Positions 995-7,497 of a stretch of DNA of 64,000 nucleotides are shown piece by piece (positions within the stretch are counted from its first letter, which is position 1; every line of letters starts with the position of its first letter). The notes beneath the pieces were generated by a model, which saw only the letters and a program-made list of their open reading frames with translations, was not told the origin of the DNA and did not search any database. Made by a program: the position numbers and the translations under genes. The DNA is from Pseudomonadota bacterium (GTDB lineage Bacteria; Desulfobacterota; Desulfobulbia; Desulfobulbales; JAGXFP01), in assembly GCA_018814305.1 (NCBI GenBank), contig JAHJAA010000043.1:1-64000 (forward strand). Reading direction: 5' to 3'.

Positions 995-1831
995 ATGCAG
1001 GATAAACTTGAAAAATTTGGCAGAGGCTCAGTTATACAGCATGGTCGGGTAAACAATAGGGTTTACTTAATGAAGCTGAACAAGGCCGATTTTCCAGAAG
1101 TTCTTGAATACATTGAGAATTTGACAATTTCAAATTCATACACAAAAATATTTTGCAAAGTTCCTTTTTGGGCGGTTCCGGGCTTTATGGCAAAGGGCTT
1201 TGCCATGGAAGCGTATATTCCAAATTTTTACAAAAACAGGGCTGATGTATTTTTTGTATCGAAGTTTCTCGATGCGGAGAGGGCATCTGGGGGGGAATAT
1301 GATAAACTGGAAGGACTTTCAAGATTGCTTATTGCCTATCGAACAAAAAAAACAGTAGGACAGGCAAATAAATCTGTTCAGATCAAAGTCCTCAAAGGGA
1401 AAGACGTTAATGAAATATCGAATTTATACAAAAAGACCTTTGACAGCTATCCTTTTCCTATATTTGACTCGGCCTACATATCTCAAACAATGAAAAACAA
1501 TGTTCAATATTTCGGCATTGAAGCAAAAGGTCGTTTGGTTGCCTTGTCATCAGCCGAAATAGATCCCCAGGGGAAAAACGCCGAGATGACCGATTTTGCC
1601 ACGCTGCCTGACTATAGGGGCGGTCAATCGGCGACCCGTCTTTTGTCTGAAATGGAAAGAGTAATGGAAGCACAAGGAATCACAACCTTATACTCTATTG
1701 CCAGACTCAATTCGCCTGCGATGAGCAAGACATTTCTCAAACATAGCTATAAATATGCTGGAACATTAATTAATAATACAAACATCTCAGGTAAAATTGA
1801 GAGTATGAACGTTTTTTACAAACACATTTGA
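995..1831 (+). CDS. ablB: putative beta-lysine N-acetyltransferase (AblB-like GNAT)
   Basis: The 278-residue protein matches the AblB family: an N-terminal segment with the GxxSVIQHGRxNNRVYLMKL pattern and a C-terminal GNAT fold (about 130-278) with the acetyl-CoA loop near ATLPDYRGGQSATRLL. AblB acetylates the epsilon-amino group of beta-lysine made by lysine 2,3-aminomutase (AblA/KamA), giving the osmolyte N-epsilon-acetyl-beta-lysine. No aminomutase gene is visible in the window, so the substrate may come from elsewhere or may differ. The gene is clearly more AT-rich than the next one, suggesting a separate origin. The ribosome binding site is weak. It leads a same-strand cluster with an ATP-grasp/peptidase fusion and a deacetylase. 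Confidence 0.8.
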   Translation: MQDKLEKFGRGSVIQHGRVNNRVYLMKLNKADFPEVLEYIENLTISNSYTKIFCKVPFWAVPGFMAKGFAMEAYIPNFYKNRADVFFVSKFLDAERASGGEYDKLEGLSRLLIAYRTKKTVGQANKSVQIKVLKGKDVNEISNLYKKTFDSYPFPIFDSAYISQTMKNNVQYFGIEAKGRLVALSSAEIDPQGKNAEMTDFATLPDYRGGQSATRLLSEMERVMEAQGITTLYSIARLNSPAMSKTFLKHSYKYAGTLINNTNISGKIESMNVFYKHI

Positions 1832-1975
1832 GCCTCTCTATCATGCTTGACGGACTCGCTAAAAGCACCTTTGAAGGCATAAATCCTTCGTACCGCTTGA
1901 GATGGCTGAGCAGCGTCTGACTTTTAACGACGTAAAAATGATTACGGGTATCTTATAAGATCAAGAGGACAAATT

Positions 1976-4123
1976 ATGAGGATCACCATTGCCTACAATC
2001 TGCGCCTTGATGACACTGAAGCCACGGCTGAACTCCTGGCGGAAGCAGACATTAAGCGGATTTATGATGCCATCAGCAGTCTTCAACACACAGTTACGGT
2101 CGTTGAGGTCTCAGGGAAACCCAACGGTGTCATCGAACGCCTTATCGAAAGCGAACCCGATCTGGTCTTCAACCTGGCTGAGGGAACTATCGGCAGTTCC
2201 CGTGAGGCATTTTATCCAGGACTGTATGAGCAAATGGGCATTCCCTTCACCGGCGGCAATGCCTCGCTCCTTCATCTCAATCTTGATAAACATCTTGCTA
2301 AAACCGTTTTATCTTCACACGGGATCAGTGTCCCGCAAGGCGTTCTGGTTACTGAAAAAGAGCGCCAATTGCCCGATAACCTGCAGTACCCGCTGATGAT
2401 CAAACCCAATTCAGAGGGGTCCAGTAAAGGCATTACCCAGGATTCGGTTGTTGAAACCAAGGAGCAGGCCCTTGACCGGATCAATCGTCTGTTGGGCCAT
2501 TACCCCGCCGGTCTGGTGGTCGAAGAGTATATTGGTGGCCGCGAACTCAGTGTTCCCTTCCTTGAAAGCTTTCCGGGCAAGTTGCTTGATATCGTTGAGC
2601 ACACCTTTGACCTCAATAAAATCGGCGGCAAATACAACATTTACGACTATGAAATGAAGCAAGGCGGCGATGCGGCCCAGGCGGTTCATATTGTTTGCCC
2701 CGCCACTATCAATGCCGAAGAAGAAAAAGCCGTCATGGAAATGGCCCGACAGGTTTTCGAGATCATGTCCTGCCCTGATGTCGGGCGAGTCGATATCCGT
2801 TTACACACCAATGGCCGCCCCTATTTTATCGAACTGAACCCGCTGCCAAGCCTGCACCCTATCGCCTCATTAATGACCGCTGCTAAATCGCGCGGGCTCG
2901 AATTCCGGGACGTCCTCCGGTTAATCATCCGCTCGGCCGCCCGCCGGTACGGCCTGGCGTTACGATCAACCAAGCAGCCGAAAAAAGTCGAATTTTCCGC
3001 CGAAACGCCTCGTCCGACCGCTCGGGAACTCGGCATCCAGATCGGTCGGTTGCGCCCGGGGGTTCATAATGCCATCACGGATGTCAAAGGCGTTCGGGTG
3101 GGTCATTGCTCAAGGGTCGAGGATAACGTCCAGATCCCTGGCGGTTCGGGGATGAGCAGCATCCGCACCGGCGCCACCGCTATTTTGCCGGCCGGCCAGG
3201 CCTATGCCAACCGGATCGCGGCCGGTGGTTTTATCTTGAATGGGGTTGGCGAAATGGCAGGTCTTACCCAGGTTATTGAGACAGGTTGGCTGGAAACCCC
3301 AATACTCCTGACCAGTTCACATTCGGTTGGTCGAGTCCATGCCGGGGTGGTCAATCATATGATTAAAAAACACCCTCGTCTTGGCACCGAATCCGATGTG
3401 GTCCTGCCGGTGGTTGGTGAGGCTGACGACTCTTTTTTAAACGATGCCAGAATCGGCGTCTGTTCAGCCCAGGATGCGATAAGGGCTATCGAGTCAGCCT
3501 CTGCCGGGTCGGTACTCCAGGGATCGATCGGGGCCGGCACGGGCATGACCAGTTTTGATTTCGCCGGCGGCATCGGCACCTCATCCAGAATAGTTAATTT
3601 TTCTGAAAGCGATGCCTTCACCGTTGGTGTCCTCGTTCTTTCCAACCTTGGCAAAATGCGCAATCTTACCATTGATGGCGGGGTCGTCGGCAGGGAATTA
3701 GACAAGGAATTCGATCAGGAAGGGCGTCGCGGAGTATCGGAAGGGTCAATCATTGTTGTGGTTGCCACTGATATCCCGTTGATCAACAGTCAGCTGAATC
3801 GGGTGTCGAAACGAGCCGCACTTGGCCTTGGTCGCACCGGTTCTTATGCCGCCTCGACCAGTGGTGAAATCATCATTGCCTTCAGCACCGGTAATCGTAA
3901 ACCCCGGCAGGTTTCTTCCAGTAGTACTTTTATTACCCTGAAATGTGTCTCGGATTACCATATCAACCTAGTGTATGAAGCCGTCATCGAAGCAACCGAA
4001 GAAGCGGTAATGAATGCAATATTCTGCTCGAAAGGGATGAACGGTCGCGAACAACGATGGTGCCCGCCGATTCCACCCGAGAGAGTGATCGAATTGTTGG
4101 GCAAAGGGAGAATCACTCCATGA
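1976..4123 (+). CDS. ATP-grasp (D-Ala-D-Ala ligase-like) / P1 family peptidase fusion
   Basis: The 715-residue protein joins two enzymes. Residues 1 to about 325 are a D-Ala-D-Ala-ligase-like ATP-grasp: NLAEG, the nucleotide-binding motif KPNSEGSSKG, EEYIGGREL, and the metal-site motifs GRVDIRL and IELNPLPSLHP. Residues about 348-715 are a P1/DmpA-type peptidase: LRPGVHNAITDVKGVRVGH, the GAGTGM and GGIGTSSR motifs, VGVLVLSNLG near residue 556 and the terminal RAALGLGRTGS. P1 enzymes (DmpA, BapA) are self-cleaving N-terminal-nucleophile aminopeptidases, and some release N-terminal beta-amino acids. One chain therefore appears to form and cleave amide bonds. I cannot place the nucleophile with certainty. 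A ribosome binding site (AGAGGA) precedes the ATG, and the stop overlaps the next start. Confidence 0.85.
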   Translation: MRITIAYNLRLDDTEATAELLAEADIKRIYDAISSLQHTVTVVEVSGKPNGVIERLIESEPDLVFNLAEGTIGSSREAFYPGLYEQMGIPFTGGNASLLHLNLDKHLAKTVLSSHGISVPQGVLVTEKERQLPDNLQYPLMIKPNSEGSSKGITQDSVVETKEQALDRINRLLGHYPAGLVVEEYIGGRELSVPFLESFPGKLLDIVEHTFDLNKIGGKYNIYDYEMKQGGDAAQAVHIVCPATINAEEEKAVMEMARQVFEIMSCPDVGRVDIRLHTNGRPYFIELNPLPSLHPIASLMTAAKSRGLEFRDVLRLIIRSAARRYGLALRSTKQPKKVEFSAETPRPTARELGIQIGRLRPGVHNAITDVKGVRVGHCSRVEDNVQIPGGSGMSSIRTGATAILPAGQAYANRIAAGGFILNGVGEMAGLTQVIETGWLETPILLTSSHSVGRVHAGVVNHMIKKHPRLGTESDVVLPVVGEADDSFLNDARIGVCSAQDAIRAIESASAGSVLQGSIGAGTGMTSFDFAGGIGTSSRIVNFSESDAFTVGVLVLSNLGKMRNLTIDGGVVGRELDKEFDQEGRRGVSEGSIIVVVATDIPLINSQLNRVSKRAALGLGRTGSYAASTSGEIIIAFSTGNRKPRQVSSSSTFITLKCVSDYHINLVYEAVIEATEEAVMNAIFCSKGMNGREQRWCPPIPPERVIELLGKGRITP

Positions 4124-5133
4124 AGGTCATTGAGAAGTATAACGACAGTCTTCACAATCCATACTGGAAGTTTCAGTTGGGCCCTGAAGCATACGAAGTG
4201 AAGGATACTCCCTTGCGGGTCGAAGCCATCAAGAAGGCCCTCCGCGCCGATCAACGGTTCCAATTCATTACCGCGGACCCCTTTCCTGAACGACTGATTT
4301 CACGATTGCATCCCTACCACGACTATATCCGCAAGACCGGGCTCAGCTTACAAAACGACAAGGAGGAATTTTATCCGGACCTTTTCCCCGGCGAGGGCGC
4401 CCATCTGAGAAAAAAAGTAGACAATCCTCTCTGGGGTGGGATTTGGTGTACCGATGCCGTGACACCCATCATGAGGAAAACATATGAGGTGGCCCGTGCC
4501 TCTGCCGAAACAGCCCTGACCGGCGCAGCACTCCTTCGCGAAGGCAGGGAAAAGGCGGTCTACGCCCTTTGCCGGCCCTCGGGGCACCATGCCGGTCCCC
4601 GGGTGTTTGGCGGCTACTGTTACTTCAATAATGTAGCCACCGCGGCCGAATACTTATTGCCCGAGGGAAGAGTCGCGATCGTCGATATCGATTATCATCA
4701 CGGCAACGGCACCCAGGAGTTCTTCGATGAGATAAAGTCCGTGTTTACGGCCTCCATCCACGGTGACCCGGATAACGAATACCCCTATTTTTGGGGCTAT
4801 GCCGAAGAAATAGGGAAGGGCCAGGCCGAGGGCACGAATCACAACGAACCGTTACCGAAGGGTACCCAGCTGGCGCAATACAGTGAGGCTGTGGATCGTA
4901 TCCTCGATATGATCCGGGGTTTCGATGCCGCTTACCTGATAATTTCTGCCGGATTCGATACCCACGAAGCTGATCCGATCGGCGGTTTTAAACTTCGCAC
5001 CGAAGAGTACACCGCCATAGGCAAACAGTTTCGGTCACTTGGCATACCAACCTTGATATGCCAGGAAGGCGGGTACAATATTGACGTTCTGGGAGCTTGC
5101 GTGAAGAACTTTCTTCTGGGATTCATGGATTAA
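4120..5133 (+). CDS. acetylpolyamine amidohydrolase-like deacetylase (HDAC superfamily)
   Basis: The 337-residue protein has the HDAC-superfamily motifs in order: PSGHHAG (active-site histidines), GGYCYFNN, DIDYHHGNGTQ (zinc ligands Asp and His), SAGFDTHEADP (third zinc ligand) and EGGYN (catalytic Tyr). Length and motif spacing match bacterial acetylpolyamine amidohydrolases (about 340 residues), which remove acetyl groups from acetylated polyamines. I chose the start at 4120 because it forms an ATGA overlap with the upstream stop and follows GGGAG; a longer frame from 4057 would overlap the fusion gene. Translational coupling ties it to the ATP-grasp/peptidase. In this cluster it may undo the acetylation made by the AblB-like enzyme. 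That link is inference. Confidence 0.88.
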   Translation: MKVIEKYNDSLHNPYWKFQLGPEAYEVKDTPLRVEAIKKALRADQRFQFITADPFPERLISRLHPYHDYIRKTGLSLQNDKEEFYPDLFPGEGAHLRKKVDNPLWGGIWCTDAVTPIMRKTYEVARASAETALTGAALLREGREKAVYALCRPSGHHAGPRVFGGYCYFNNVATAAEYLLPEGRVAIVDIDYHHGNGTQEFFDEIKSVFTASIHGDPDNEYPYFWGYAEEIGKGQAEGTNHNEPLPKGTQLAQYSEAVDRILDMIRGFDAAYLIISAGFDTHEADPIGGFKLRTEEYTAIGKQFRSLGIPTLICQEGGYNIDVLGACVKNFLLGFMD

Positions 5134-5449: not shown

Positions 5450-7162
5450 TCAAGATGAACAGTCTGCTGCGCAAAGGGATGGATTTTCACCGTTATTCCA
5501 GGCGCAGTGGCCATCGCCACAAAATCCACAGTCGTTTGGACAGTTTGTTTCCGTTTCGCCCAAGGCATCGTCGCAGATAGCATTTCCACAGTGGCAATCT
5601 GCCAGGCAGGTACTATAGTCTTCACTGTTGTTCCAGGCGCAGTGGCCATCGCCACAAAATCCACAGTCGTTTGGACAGTTGGTTGCCGTTTCACCCAGAT
5701 TGCTTTCGCAGATAGCATTGCCGCAATGGCAGTCGTCAAAGCAGCTCGTGTAATTCTCCCCGCTGCCATAAGCACAGTATCCATCCCCGCAGATTCCGCA
5801 GTCGTTTGCACAATTGTCCGCTGTTTCCCCGAGGGTATTATCACAGATATTATTGCCGCAATGGCAGTCGTCAAAGCAGCTCGTGTAATTCTCCCCGCTG
5901 CCATAAGCACAGTATCCATCCCCGCAGGTTCCGCAGTCGTTTGCACAGTTATCAGCCGTTTCTTCGAGGGCATCTTCGCAGATATTGTTGCCACAAAAGC
6001 AATCGTCTGGGCAATTTTCACTATCTTCATTGTTTCCCCAGGCGCAGAAACTGTCCCCACAGGTACCGCAATCGTTCTTGCAGGTGGACGCAGTTTCACC
6101 CAAGCTTTCTTCGCAAAGGTTGTTTCCGCAGTAGCAGTCTGTTTGACAGGGGTCAGGGTTTTGTCCGGAGTCGGTACAGTTCACCAGATATCTGATGGAG
6201 ATGGTATCAGTATGGTCAAAGTCTGACTGCTGGGAGCCAATCTTGCCGCGGTAACGAATCTTAAGGTCCAGTTGAATTGAACCGTTTCCCGGTTGCTCAC
6301 AGGTATAGTTTCCCAATGAATAATCCGCTATTGGCAATGGCACATCAATGGCGCTGTCTCCCCACCATGCCTGGCCTGAGTTGGAAGTAGTGATTAACTC
6401 TTGAAGATCTGTCTGAATGGATTGATCCTGGCTGACAGCACCATCAGCAATACTGGTAAATGAGGTGTAGCGCACCGTTTCCAGAACGATTTTCTGGTTC
6501 GATTGAGGGTTTTTTAGGATATCTAGATCAATGGGAATGGAGAAAGGGGTGTAGGCCGGAGGAGAGGTGCTAAATCCGAAGGTTGATCTGGCCACAATCG
6601 TTGATTTCGGATTCCGGATAGTCAAGCGGCTAAAGTGATTGACCCCGGTGTTGATGCTTAATCCGGTGGAGTTGTCAGCCTGCAGGAGGTTAGAGATGGT
6701 TTCGGTGAGCAGTTCGATATCACCTTCTGTGGATTCAAGTTCCGCAAAAGGGGCCTGGAGGCTGTGGGTAAGATCCTCGGGGTGGCCGGTTGCGTTCTGT
6801 AGTTCTCCGAGTTCGTCGGAGTCGGTTTCAATTGTTATGGTGGCAGGAGTATTAAAAGTCAGGCCATCGGGCTCTAGTTCATAGCCGACTGCAGCGGTCA
6901 GGTCGTCCTGAGGGGTGATGGTTATTTCGGTGTCTTCGTTGAGGGCTCCGGGATCGATAGCCATTATAAAACTATTGTCGCCGGTGGTAATACGGCCTCC
7001 GTTAAGATCGCTGATCGTTTCATGAACTGAATTTTGAGGGGGGGCCGTTGTGTCATTCGAAGTCGTGTCGTCAGTGTTGTTGTCGTTACTGCCACTACAG
7101 CCAACGCAGGAGATGATTGTGAAGAGGAAAATAAAAAGATAGGAAAAAGAAATCAATTTCAT
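5450..7162 (-). CDS. secreted lipoprotein with ten tandem four-cysteine modules
   Basis: The 570-residue protein starts with a lipoprotein signal (Cys19 in IISC, or Cys22). Residues about 45-115 resemble a ZU5-like beta domain (GGRITTGDNSF, AIDPGALNEDTEITI). The C-terminal 230 residues are ten cysteine modules alternating between a CGNxxC...GETxxNCxxDC type and a CGDGxC...C..DC type, five pairs of about 45 residues. Such modules are probably disulfide-bonded or metal-binding and imply an exported, surface-anchored protein. I know no function. The start at 7162 is preceded by GAGGG; upstream in-frame codons lack a ribosome binding site. It stands alone on its strand. Confidence 0.75.
   Translation of the reverse strand: MKLISFSYLFIFLFTIISCVGCSGSNDNNTDDTTSNDTTAPPQNSVHETISDLNGGRITTGDNSFIMAIDPGALNEDTEITITPQDDLTAAVGYELEPDGLTFNTPATITIETDSDELGELQNATGHPEDLTHSLQAPFAELESTEGDIELLTETISNLLQADNSTGLSINTGVNHFSRLTIRNPKSTIVARSTFGFSTSPPAYTPFSIPIDLDILKNPQSNQKIVLETVRYTSFTSIADGAVSQDQSIQTDLQELITTSNSGQAWWGDSAIDVPLPIADYSLGNYTCEQPGNGSIQLDLKIRYRGKIGSQQSDFDHTDTISIRYLVNCTDSGQNPDPCQTDCYCGNNLCEESLGETASTCKNDCGTCGDSFCAWGNNEDSENCPDDCFCGNNICEDALEETADNCANDCGTCGDGYCAYGSGENYTSCFDDCHCGNNICDNTLGETADNCANDCGICGDGYCAYGSGENYTSCFDDCHCGNAICESNLGETATNCPNDCGFCGDGHCAWNNSEDYSTCLADCHCGNAICDDALGETETNCPNDCGFCGDGHCAWNNGENPSLCAADCSS
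5460..6140 (-). repeat. 135-bp tandem repeats encoding the cysteine modules
   Basis: The coding repeats have an exact 135-bp period: matching blocks begin at 5501 and 5636, and at 5721 and 5856. The 5721/5856 pair is almost identical for about 95 bases. This indicates recent duplication within the gene and likely copy-number variation between strains. Confidence 0.85.
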
Positions 7163-7497
7163 GATGCACCCTCTCAAGCTTATAGCAGCGGGGAGCATGA
7201 TTCAGCAGTCTTGCTCCCCGAGAAAGGTTTCTCTTGATTGCATAATGGTTTGAAATGTTATGAATAAATAAAATCCGTTGGCTTGGAAAAGTCAAGTGTG
7301 TTCGTTAGATAGGCATATTGGAAAAAGGCTGGGGTAGGCTGGAAGAATGGGGGGGCACGCTAACCTCTGAAATCATTTGAATTAATTGCCAAAAATAGGG
7401 TTTTTGTCGGATATAATGACTTTTTCATGGTTAATTCCAGAGTTTCAGACTCGCCGCAGACACGACCCGGATCCTCTTCCACAAGGAGGGGATTTTT
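7163..7497. other. divergent intergenic region
   Basis: About 335 bases separate the minus-strand lipoprotein from the + strand small gene. It must hold both promoters. A TATAAT box at 7412-7417 fits the + strand gene. I see no other gene or repeat. Confidence 0.5.
7386..7417 (+). promoter_or_regulatory. possible sigma-70 promoter
   Basis: A perfect TATAAT lies at 7412-7417. The best -35 match, TTGCCA at 7386-7391, is 20 bases away, which is long. It would serve the small gene at 7498. Confidence 0.35.

Follow-up and report, generated by a model that had tools for sequence, protein, structure and literature searches.

A transferred ATP-grasp ligase/S58 peptidase fusion, its partner deacetylase and their possible tie to acetyl-β-lysine

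Near the start of a 64,000-nucleotide stretch of desulfobulbal DNA (hereafter the window), an acetyltransferase of the β-lysine family stands beside a protein with both an amide-forming and an amide-cleaving domain, which is followed in turn by a deacetylase. What could such a set of enzymes make, or break? N-ε-acetyl-β-lysine is a classic osmolyte with, to our knowledge, only two dedicated enzymes, AblA and AblB; as far as we found in the open-access literature, no route for its onward use or removal is known. The AblA/AblB pathway occurs in methanogens and has been predicted in Pelobacter (PMC3543383). A preliminary description of the window, made from the letters alone, had proposed that the three genes serve an acetylated β-amino-acid or polyamine conjugate, for osmotic stress or storage. 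Here we follow up this proposal by computational comparison with other genomes.

Gene content of the locus

The three genes lie in tandem on the + strand at positions 995-5133 of the window, where the preliminary description had placed them, close to the beginning of contig C5; the genome measures 4.15 Mb in 92 contigs. The first (995..1831, +, 278 residues) encodes a GNAT acetyltransferase of the AblB type, a putative β-lysine N-ε-acetyltransferase: it reaches 287.1 bits on the curated equivalog model TIGR03827, whose cut-off is 205.1, in agreement with its earlier assignment. The second (1976..4123, +, 715 residues) is a single open frame that fuses an ATP-grasp ligase to an S58 (P1/DmpA-type) peptidase. 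Its ATP-grasp half (residues 1-330; 1976..2965) belongs to the D-Ala-D-Ala-ligase superfamily, with 105 bits for PF07478 (Dala_Dala_lig_C) over residues 127-318, and its peptidase half (residues 345-715; 3008..4120) gives 338 bits for Peptidase_S58 over residues 365-694; the two opposed domains recognized before are thus indeed joined in one chain. The third gene (4120..5133, +, 337 residues) encodes a Zn deacetylase of the HDAC/APAH type, again as first read (PF00850, 218.9 bits). Its start codon, the ATG at 4120, forms an ATGA that overlaps the TGA of the fusion by four bases, which confirms the overlap noted before.

The acetyltransferase gene differs from its two neighbours in composition, with a GC content of 0.388 against 0.534 for the fusion and 0.533 for the deacetylase, and 144 bases separate it from the fusion. 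Because of this gap and its AT-richness, the gene is probably a separate, later and recent acquisition, and it is not clearly in one operon with the fusion. It is the second ablB copy of the genome, 51% identical to a Prolixibacteraceae ablB and 42% to the genome's own copy on contig C46. No aminomutase gene adjoins it in the window; the earlier remark that none is present therefore holds locally, but not for the genome as a whole, where contig C46 carries ablA beside the other ablB as a complete pair and further aminomutase homologues lie on contigs C80 and C22. The non-coding stretches on both sides of the window ablB, 582-994 and 1832-1975, are AT-rich as well (GC 0.40 and 0.43), and are possibly part of the DNA that carried it in.

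Two further genes flank the locus, both on the - strand. Upstream, at 135-581, a catalase-peroxidase gene is represented by its 5' part, of about 125 residues; it stops early near the contig start and is apparently a broken katG. Downstream, 5450-7198 encodes a secreted-looking protein of 582 residues, without a match in a Pfam search and built of repeated Cys-rich CGNxxCE/CGDGxC units.

A transferred pair of genes

Fusions of the same architecture, 69-84% identical to that of the window, occur in 17 further genomes. By record titles and tree labels, the carriers belong to at least eight phyla: Ignavibacteriota, Bacteroidota, Desulfobacterota, Pseudomonadota, Spirochaetota, Kiritimatiellota, Verrucomicrobiota and Auribacterota. 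Its recurrence in many genomes rules out that the fusion is an artefact of assembly or of a frameshift. The deacetylase gene follows the fusion in all 16 genomes whose contig extends that far and in two more, always in the same order and mostly with the genes overlapping; the pairing, recurring in so many genomes, is therefore more than chance. Its sole exception is a genome (G342) whose fusion homologue, 57% identical, has no deacetylase adjacent.

The genes flanking the pair differ from one genome to the next. In the tree, the fusions of Melioribacteraceae and Prolixibacteraceae are sisters, joined by that of the window, which contradicts the kinship of the organisms. The records of two carriers, Psychromonas MB-3u-54 and Marinilabilia rubra WTE16, do not bear titles of metagenome-assembled genomes (MAGs), so that the spread is not just an error of binning. 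Judged by these sequence comparisons, the fusion and the deacetylase are a mobile, horizontally transferred two-gene unit. In a plasmid search, no record spans 80% of the fusion; the top matches are P1 (S58) peptidases with about half of it covered. The viral contigs searched held no relative.

Two carriers show local irregularities. The fusion frame of Candidatus Electrothrix aarhusensis is split at about 11310 of its locus (L014), near residue 438, in a way that fits a single missing base, likely a sequencing error. In Psychromonas, the interval that separates the fusion from the deacetylase gene contains near-repeats of the fusion's 3' end, each of about 100 bases (L008, 12120-12440).

Association with ablA and ablB

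In the other genomes that carry the fusion, ablA scores over its cut-off in 15/17 and ablB in 16/17. Psychromonas has ablB beside the fusion and no ablA over the cut-off, and in Electronema KV, which holds the pair, neither gene was found; the latter genome is a MAG of medium quality that stands close to a saltwater species (PMC10030654). Marinilabilia rubra WTE16 has ablA and ablB together with the fusion and the deacetylase. In the window's phylum, ablB is rare (14 of 395 sampled genomes), and both genomes with the fusion possess it (Fisher p 0.0012); within one family (that of L003), where ablB occurs in 47/140 genomes, it accompanies the fusion in 6/6 and is found in 41/134 of the others (p 0.0011), the genomes in both tests not being phylogenetically independent. 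The preliminary description had named a lack of co-occurring homologues as grounds for refuting it; in fact, ablA and ablB occur with the fusion far above background.

Most of the pairs are not adjacent to abl genes. Nevertheless, ablB adjoins the pair in 3/18 genomes, upstream in the window and in a verrucomicrobial MAG and downstream in Psychromonas, for which the probability by chance is about 1e-6. Each of these ablB genes sits on a branch of its own, which makes it probable that the juxtaposition arose independently three times. In the verrucomicrobial MAG (L011) the order is ablA, a gene for an MscS mechanosensitive channel, an SSF Na+:solute symporter gene, ablB, the fusion and the deacetylase. 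This array, with a channel and a Na+ symporter in line with the abl genes and the fusion, supports the acetylated β-amino acid and the role in osmotic stress that had been suggested for the locus. Clusters of the ablA-SSF-ablB type recur at other sites in other genomes with the fusion. Altogether, the tie of the pair to β-lysine is well supported, mainly by co-occurrence, and suggests that acetyl-β-lysine may be extended or recycled by a route not recognised so far.

The main competing explanation is that the genes share nothing beyond a saline, anoxic habitat, the pair being an independent module for another amino acid or a dipeptide, with no biochemical link to β-lysine. Shared saline habitat could give the co-occurrence: several of the carriers are marine or saline, and by record title several hosts are marine or sediment bacteria, the flanks of the pair look random, contact with ablB is limited to the few genomes named above, and Electronema KV keeps the pair with no abl genes found. 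We still hold this explanation to be unlikely, if a serious contender, as the association persists within a single family, which reduces the part that habitat can play, and as it has to contend with three independent juxtapositions, with the full verrucomicrobial array and with the relation between the ligase half and ligases linked to aminomutases (see below).

The abl genes and the pair also meet in Candidatus Electrothrix aarhusensis, where ablA and ablB are adjacent and over their cut-offs (L080, 6564-8709) and the fusion-deacetylase pair is found as well (L014). A study of cable bacteria states that none of the MAGs encodes osmolyte biosynthesis (PMC10030654), with which these genes are in tension.

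The peptidase half and a proposed function

Both halves of the fusion are present in 17/17 aligned rows. The catalytic residues S250 (the nucleophile), N218, S288 and E144 of DmpA correspond to S591, N557, S629 and E482 of the fusion, all invariant in these rows. Equally invariant is G590 before S591, as in the cleavage site of DmpA (G249/S250); the alignment places the predicted autoproteolysis site at the GS codons 3743..3748. Self-cleavage at Gly590/Ser591 would yield two chains, ATP-grasp-alpha with 590 residues and beta with 125. Residue 631 (position 290) is a glutamate, as in BapA, whereas Tyr146 of DmpA is replaced by Asp484; another difference from DmpA and BapA is the location of the S58 domain behind an ATP-grasp ligase. 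DmpA and BapA enzymes hydrolyse and also form β-alanyl dipeptides (PMC9235088). An AlphaFold model of the fusion, built on the alignment of 17 rows, was too poor for use, with a mean pLDDT of 49 and the S58 half unmodelled.

Our preferred explanation, to which we give somewhat less than an even chance, is that the fusion and the deacetylase are a transferred accessory to the AblA/AblB pathway of N-ε-acetyl-β-lysine, making and breaking an amide of β-lysine; its substrate, product and direction, the self-cleavage and the osmotic role are what we infer. AblA, encoded elsewhere in the genome, would convert lysine to β-lysine, and AblB would acetylate it. Spending ATP, the ATP-grasp half would activate a carboxylate, with β-lysine or acetyl-β-lysine as its likeliest source, and couple it to another amino compound; the product would be an (acetyl-)β-lysyl amide or dipeptide. 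The S58 half, once self-cleaved, would hydrolyse the bond behind the N-terminal β-amino acid and the deacetylase would strip the side-chain acetyl group, so that the osmolyte might be returned to its building blocks when salinity falls. Of the two kinds of conjugate first considered, the β-amino-acid one is favoured by the co-occurrence with ablA and ablB and by the one-genome array. Against the proposal counts that N-ε-acetyl-β-lysine is turned over little in methanogens (PMC1224877).

With the known AblA/AblB pathway the system has in common the acetyltransferase family and a complete ablA-ablB pair in the window's genome; the known pathway has no ligase, S58 peptidase or deacetylase. A further parallel is the system for N-acetylglutaminylglutamine amide, whose genes encode a GNAT/ATP-grasp ligase, an asparagine synthetase and an M42 peptidase. 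There too an acetyltransferase, an amino-acid ligase and a peptidase are grouped around an acetylated dipeptide osmolyte, but the ligase and peptidase families differ, and at our locus the GNAT is separate and an amidotransferase gene is missing.

The same enzymes could serve breakdown alone: the deacetylase and the S58 half would dismantle acetyl-β-lysine or its peptides, taken up from the medium or left over after a salt downshift, and the ligase would only reconjugate the amine. Two of the three activities are hydrolytic, Na+ symporters stand within abl clusters of genomes with the fusion, and the acetyl group added by AblB would be a plausible substrate for a deacetylase of the acetyl-lysine type. 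An ATP-spending ligase, kept in the same chain in every aligned row, would be odd for pure breakdown, and we judge this version rather improbable.

All parts of the system belong to known families; what we have not found described in the open-access literature is the fusion, its pairing with the deacetylase, their transfer and the tie to abl genes. A 2009 survey of amidoligases by Iyer and others lies outside that scope and may mention aminomutase/ATP-grasp neighbourhoods. We class the pair as a system for amino-acid conjugates that is built on an amidoligase and joined to an osmolyte pathway already known. If it is tied to acetyl-β-lysine as we propose, the module would add a new branch of osmolyte chemistry common to Bacteroidota, Desulfobacterota, Kiritimatiellota and others.

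The deacetylase and the question of polyamines

In the deacetylase, the Zn ligands, the catalytic His-His and the tyrosine (H156, H157, D191, H193, D280 and Y319) are invariant in the alignment. Its best matches in the PDB are acetylpolyamine amidohydrolases (APAH), 6phr and 3q9b, with which it shares these residues. It departs from them in the acidic residues of the active site: E117 and E106 of Mycoplana ramosa APAH, whose roles there have been described (PMC5454378, PMC11532494), align with V114 and P103, whereas the Pseudomonas aeruginosa enzyme (6phr) has an aspartate at the E117 position. E117 makes a salt bridge with the polyamine (PMC5454378).

These replacements bear on the polyamine half of the original proposal, which they weaken. 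Under such a scheme, the fusion would make and cleave a peptide-polyamine amide, in the manner of glutathionylspermidine synthetase/amidase, and the deacetylase would free acetylpolyamines. The kinship with APAH invites this idea, as does the known bifunctional enzyme, in which one polypeptide both forms and cleaves an amide. However, its peptidase domain is unrelated to S58 and its ATP-grasp is of another family; Pfam finds in the fusion neither the glutathionylspermidine synthase domain (GSP synthase ATP-grasp) nor an amidase domain of the CHAP type, and none of the neighbours scanned is a polyamine gene. With the loss of both glutamates added, we consider a polyamine conjugate very unlikely.

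The ligase half and related clusters

The ATP-grasp half resembles D-Ala-D-Ala ligase (Ddl) in superfamily, but the fusion reaches only 131.5 bits on the Ddl model TIGR01205, the cut-off of which is 245.65, whereas the genome's own Ddl scores 286.2. In a tree of 50 rows, a Ddl clade (100/100) excludes the fusions, which form one separate clade (100/99), and the Ddl of the window's genome falls together with the Ddl sequences of Electrothrix and a Desulfobulbaceae genome (100/100), which points to a probable place of the genome in Desulfobacterota. The sub-cut-off score, the separate clade and the presence of a true Ddl besides rule out that the fusion is the Ddl of the genome. That a Ddl paralogue, a D-aminopeptidase and a deacetylase might together alter peptidoglycan precursors is suggested by the superfamily of the ligase and by the name D-aminopeptidase given to the related S58 structures 2drh and 5tzb, yet it is the least probable of the alternatives, as all 14/14 genomes tested have their own Ddl over the cut-off, the two clades are distinct and no cell-wall genes recur among the neighbours of the pair that were scanned.

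The sister of the fusion clade in this tree (97/90) is AGa, the first ATP-grasp of a cluster on contig C80 of the window's genome (L024, 3363-9149). In this cluster an aminomutase gene stands in a row with genes for two Ddl-like ATP-grasps and for a protein in which GNAT and HDAC domains are fused; a further radical SAM gene comes next. It has the ingredients of the window locus, with a first ligase that is sister to the ligase half; it differs in the lack of an S58 domain, in its two separate ligases and, in the window's genome, in the fusion of HDAC to GNAT. AGa occurs in 94/385 sampled genomes of the phylum. Among 20 of its neighbourhoods, an aminomutase stands beside it in nearly all; most include a second ATP-grasp, most a GNAT, and a few an HDAC; the AGa-type cluster of G342 has a shuffled order and keeps most of the parts. 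Since aminomutases accompany the AGa relatives, relatives of the ligase half are tied to aminomutase in their own right. The cluster of aminomutase, two ATP-grasps and acetyltransferase, sometimes with a deacetylase, is widespread and apparently undescribed, and a tie of the module to acetyl-β-lysine would offer a first functional handle on it.

A broader reading, which we put forward as possible but rather doubtful, would unite both arrangements: enzymes similar to D-Ala-D-Ala ligase would make, in two versions, a new class of acetylated β-lysine peptides, as osmolyte or storage. One version would be the mobile fusion and deacetylase that plug into AblA/AblB across phyla; the other would be the cluster of aminomutase, double ATP-grasp and acetyltransferase (with or without deacetylase) present in roughly a quarter of the phylum's sampled genomes.

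A different ligase fusion is encoded in a genome of Melioribacteraceae (G001; L174, 6596-9376), beside a glutamine amidotransferase gene. It joins a Ddl-like ATP-grasp to a C-terminal half of about 370 residues, which has no Pfam match and, by eye, resembles M20 peptidases.
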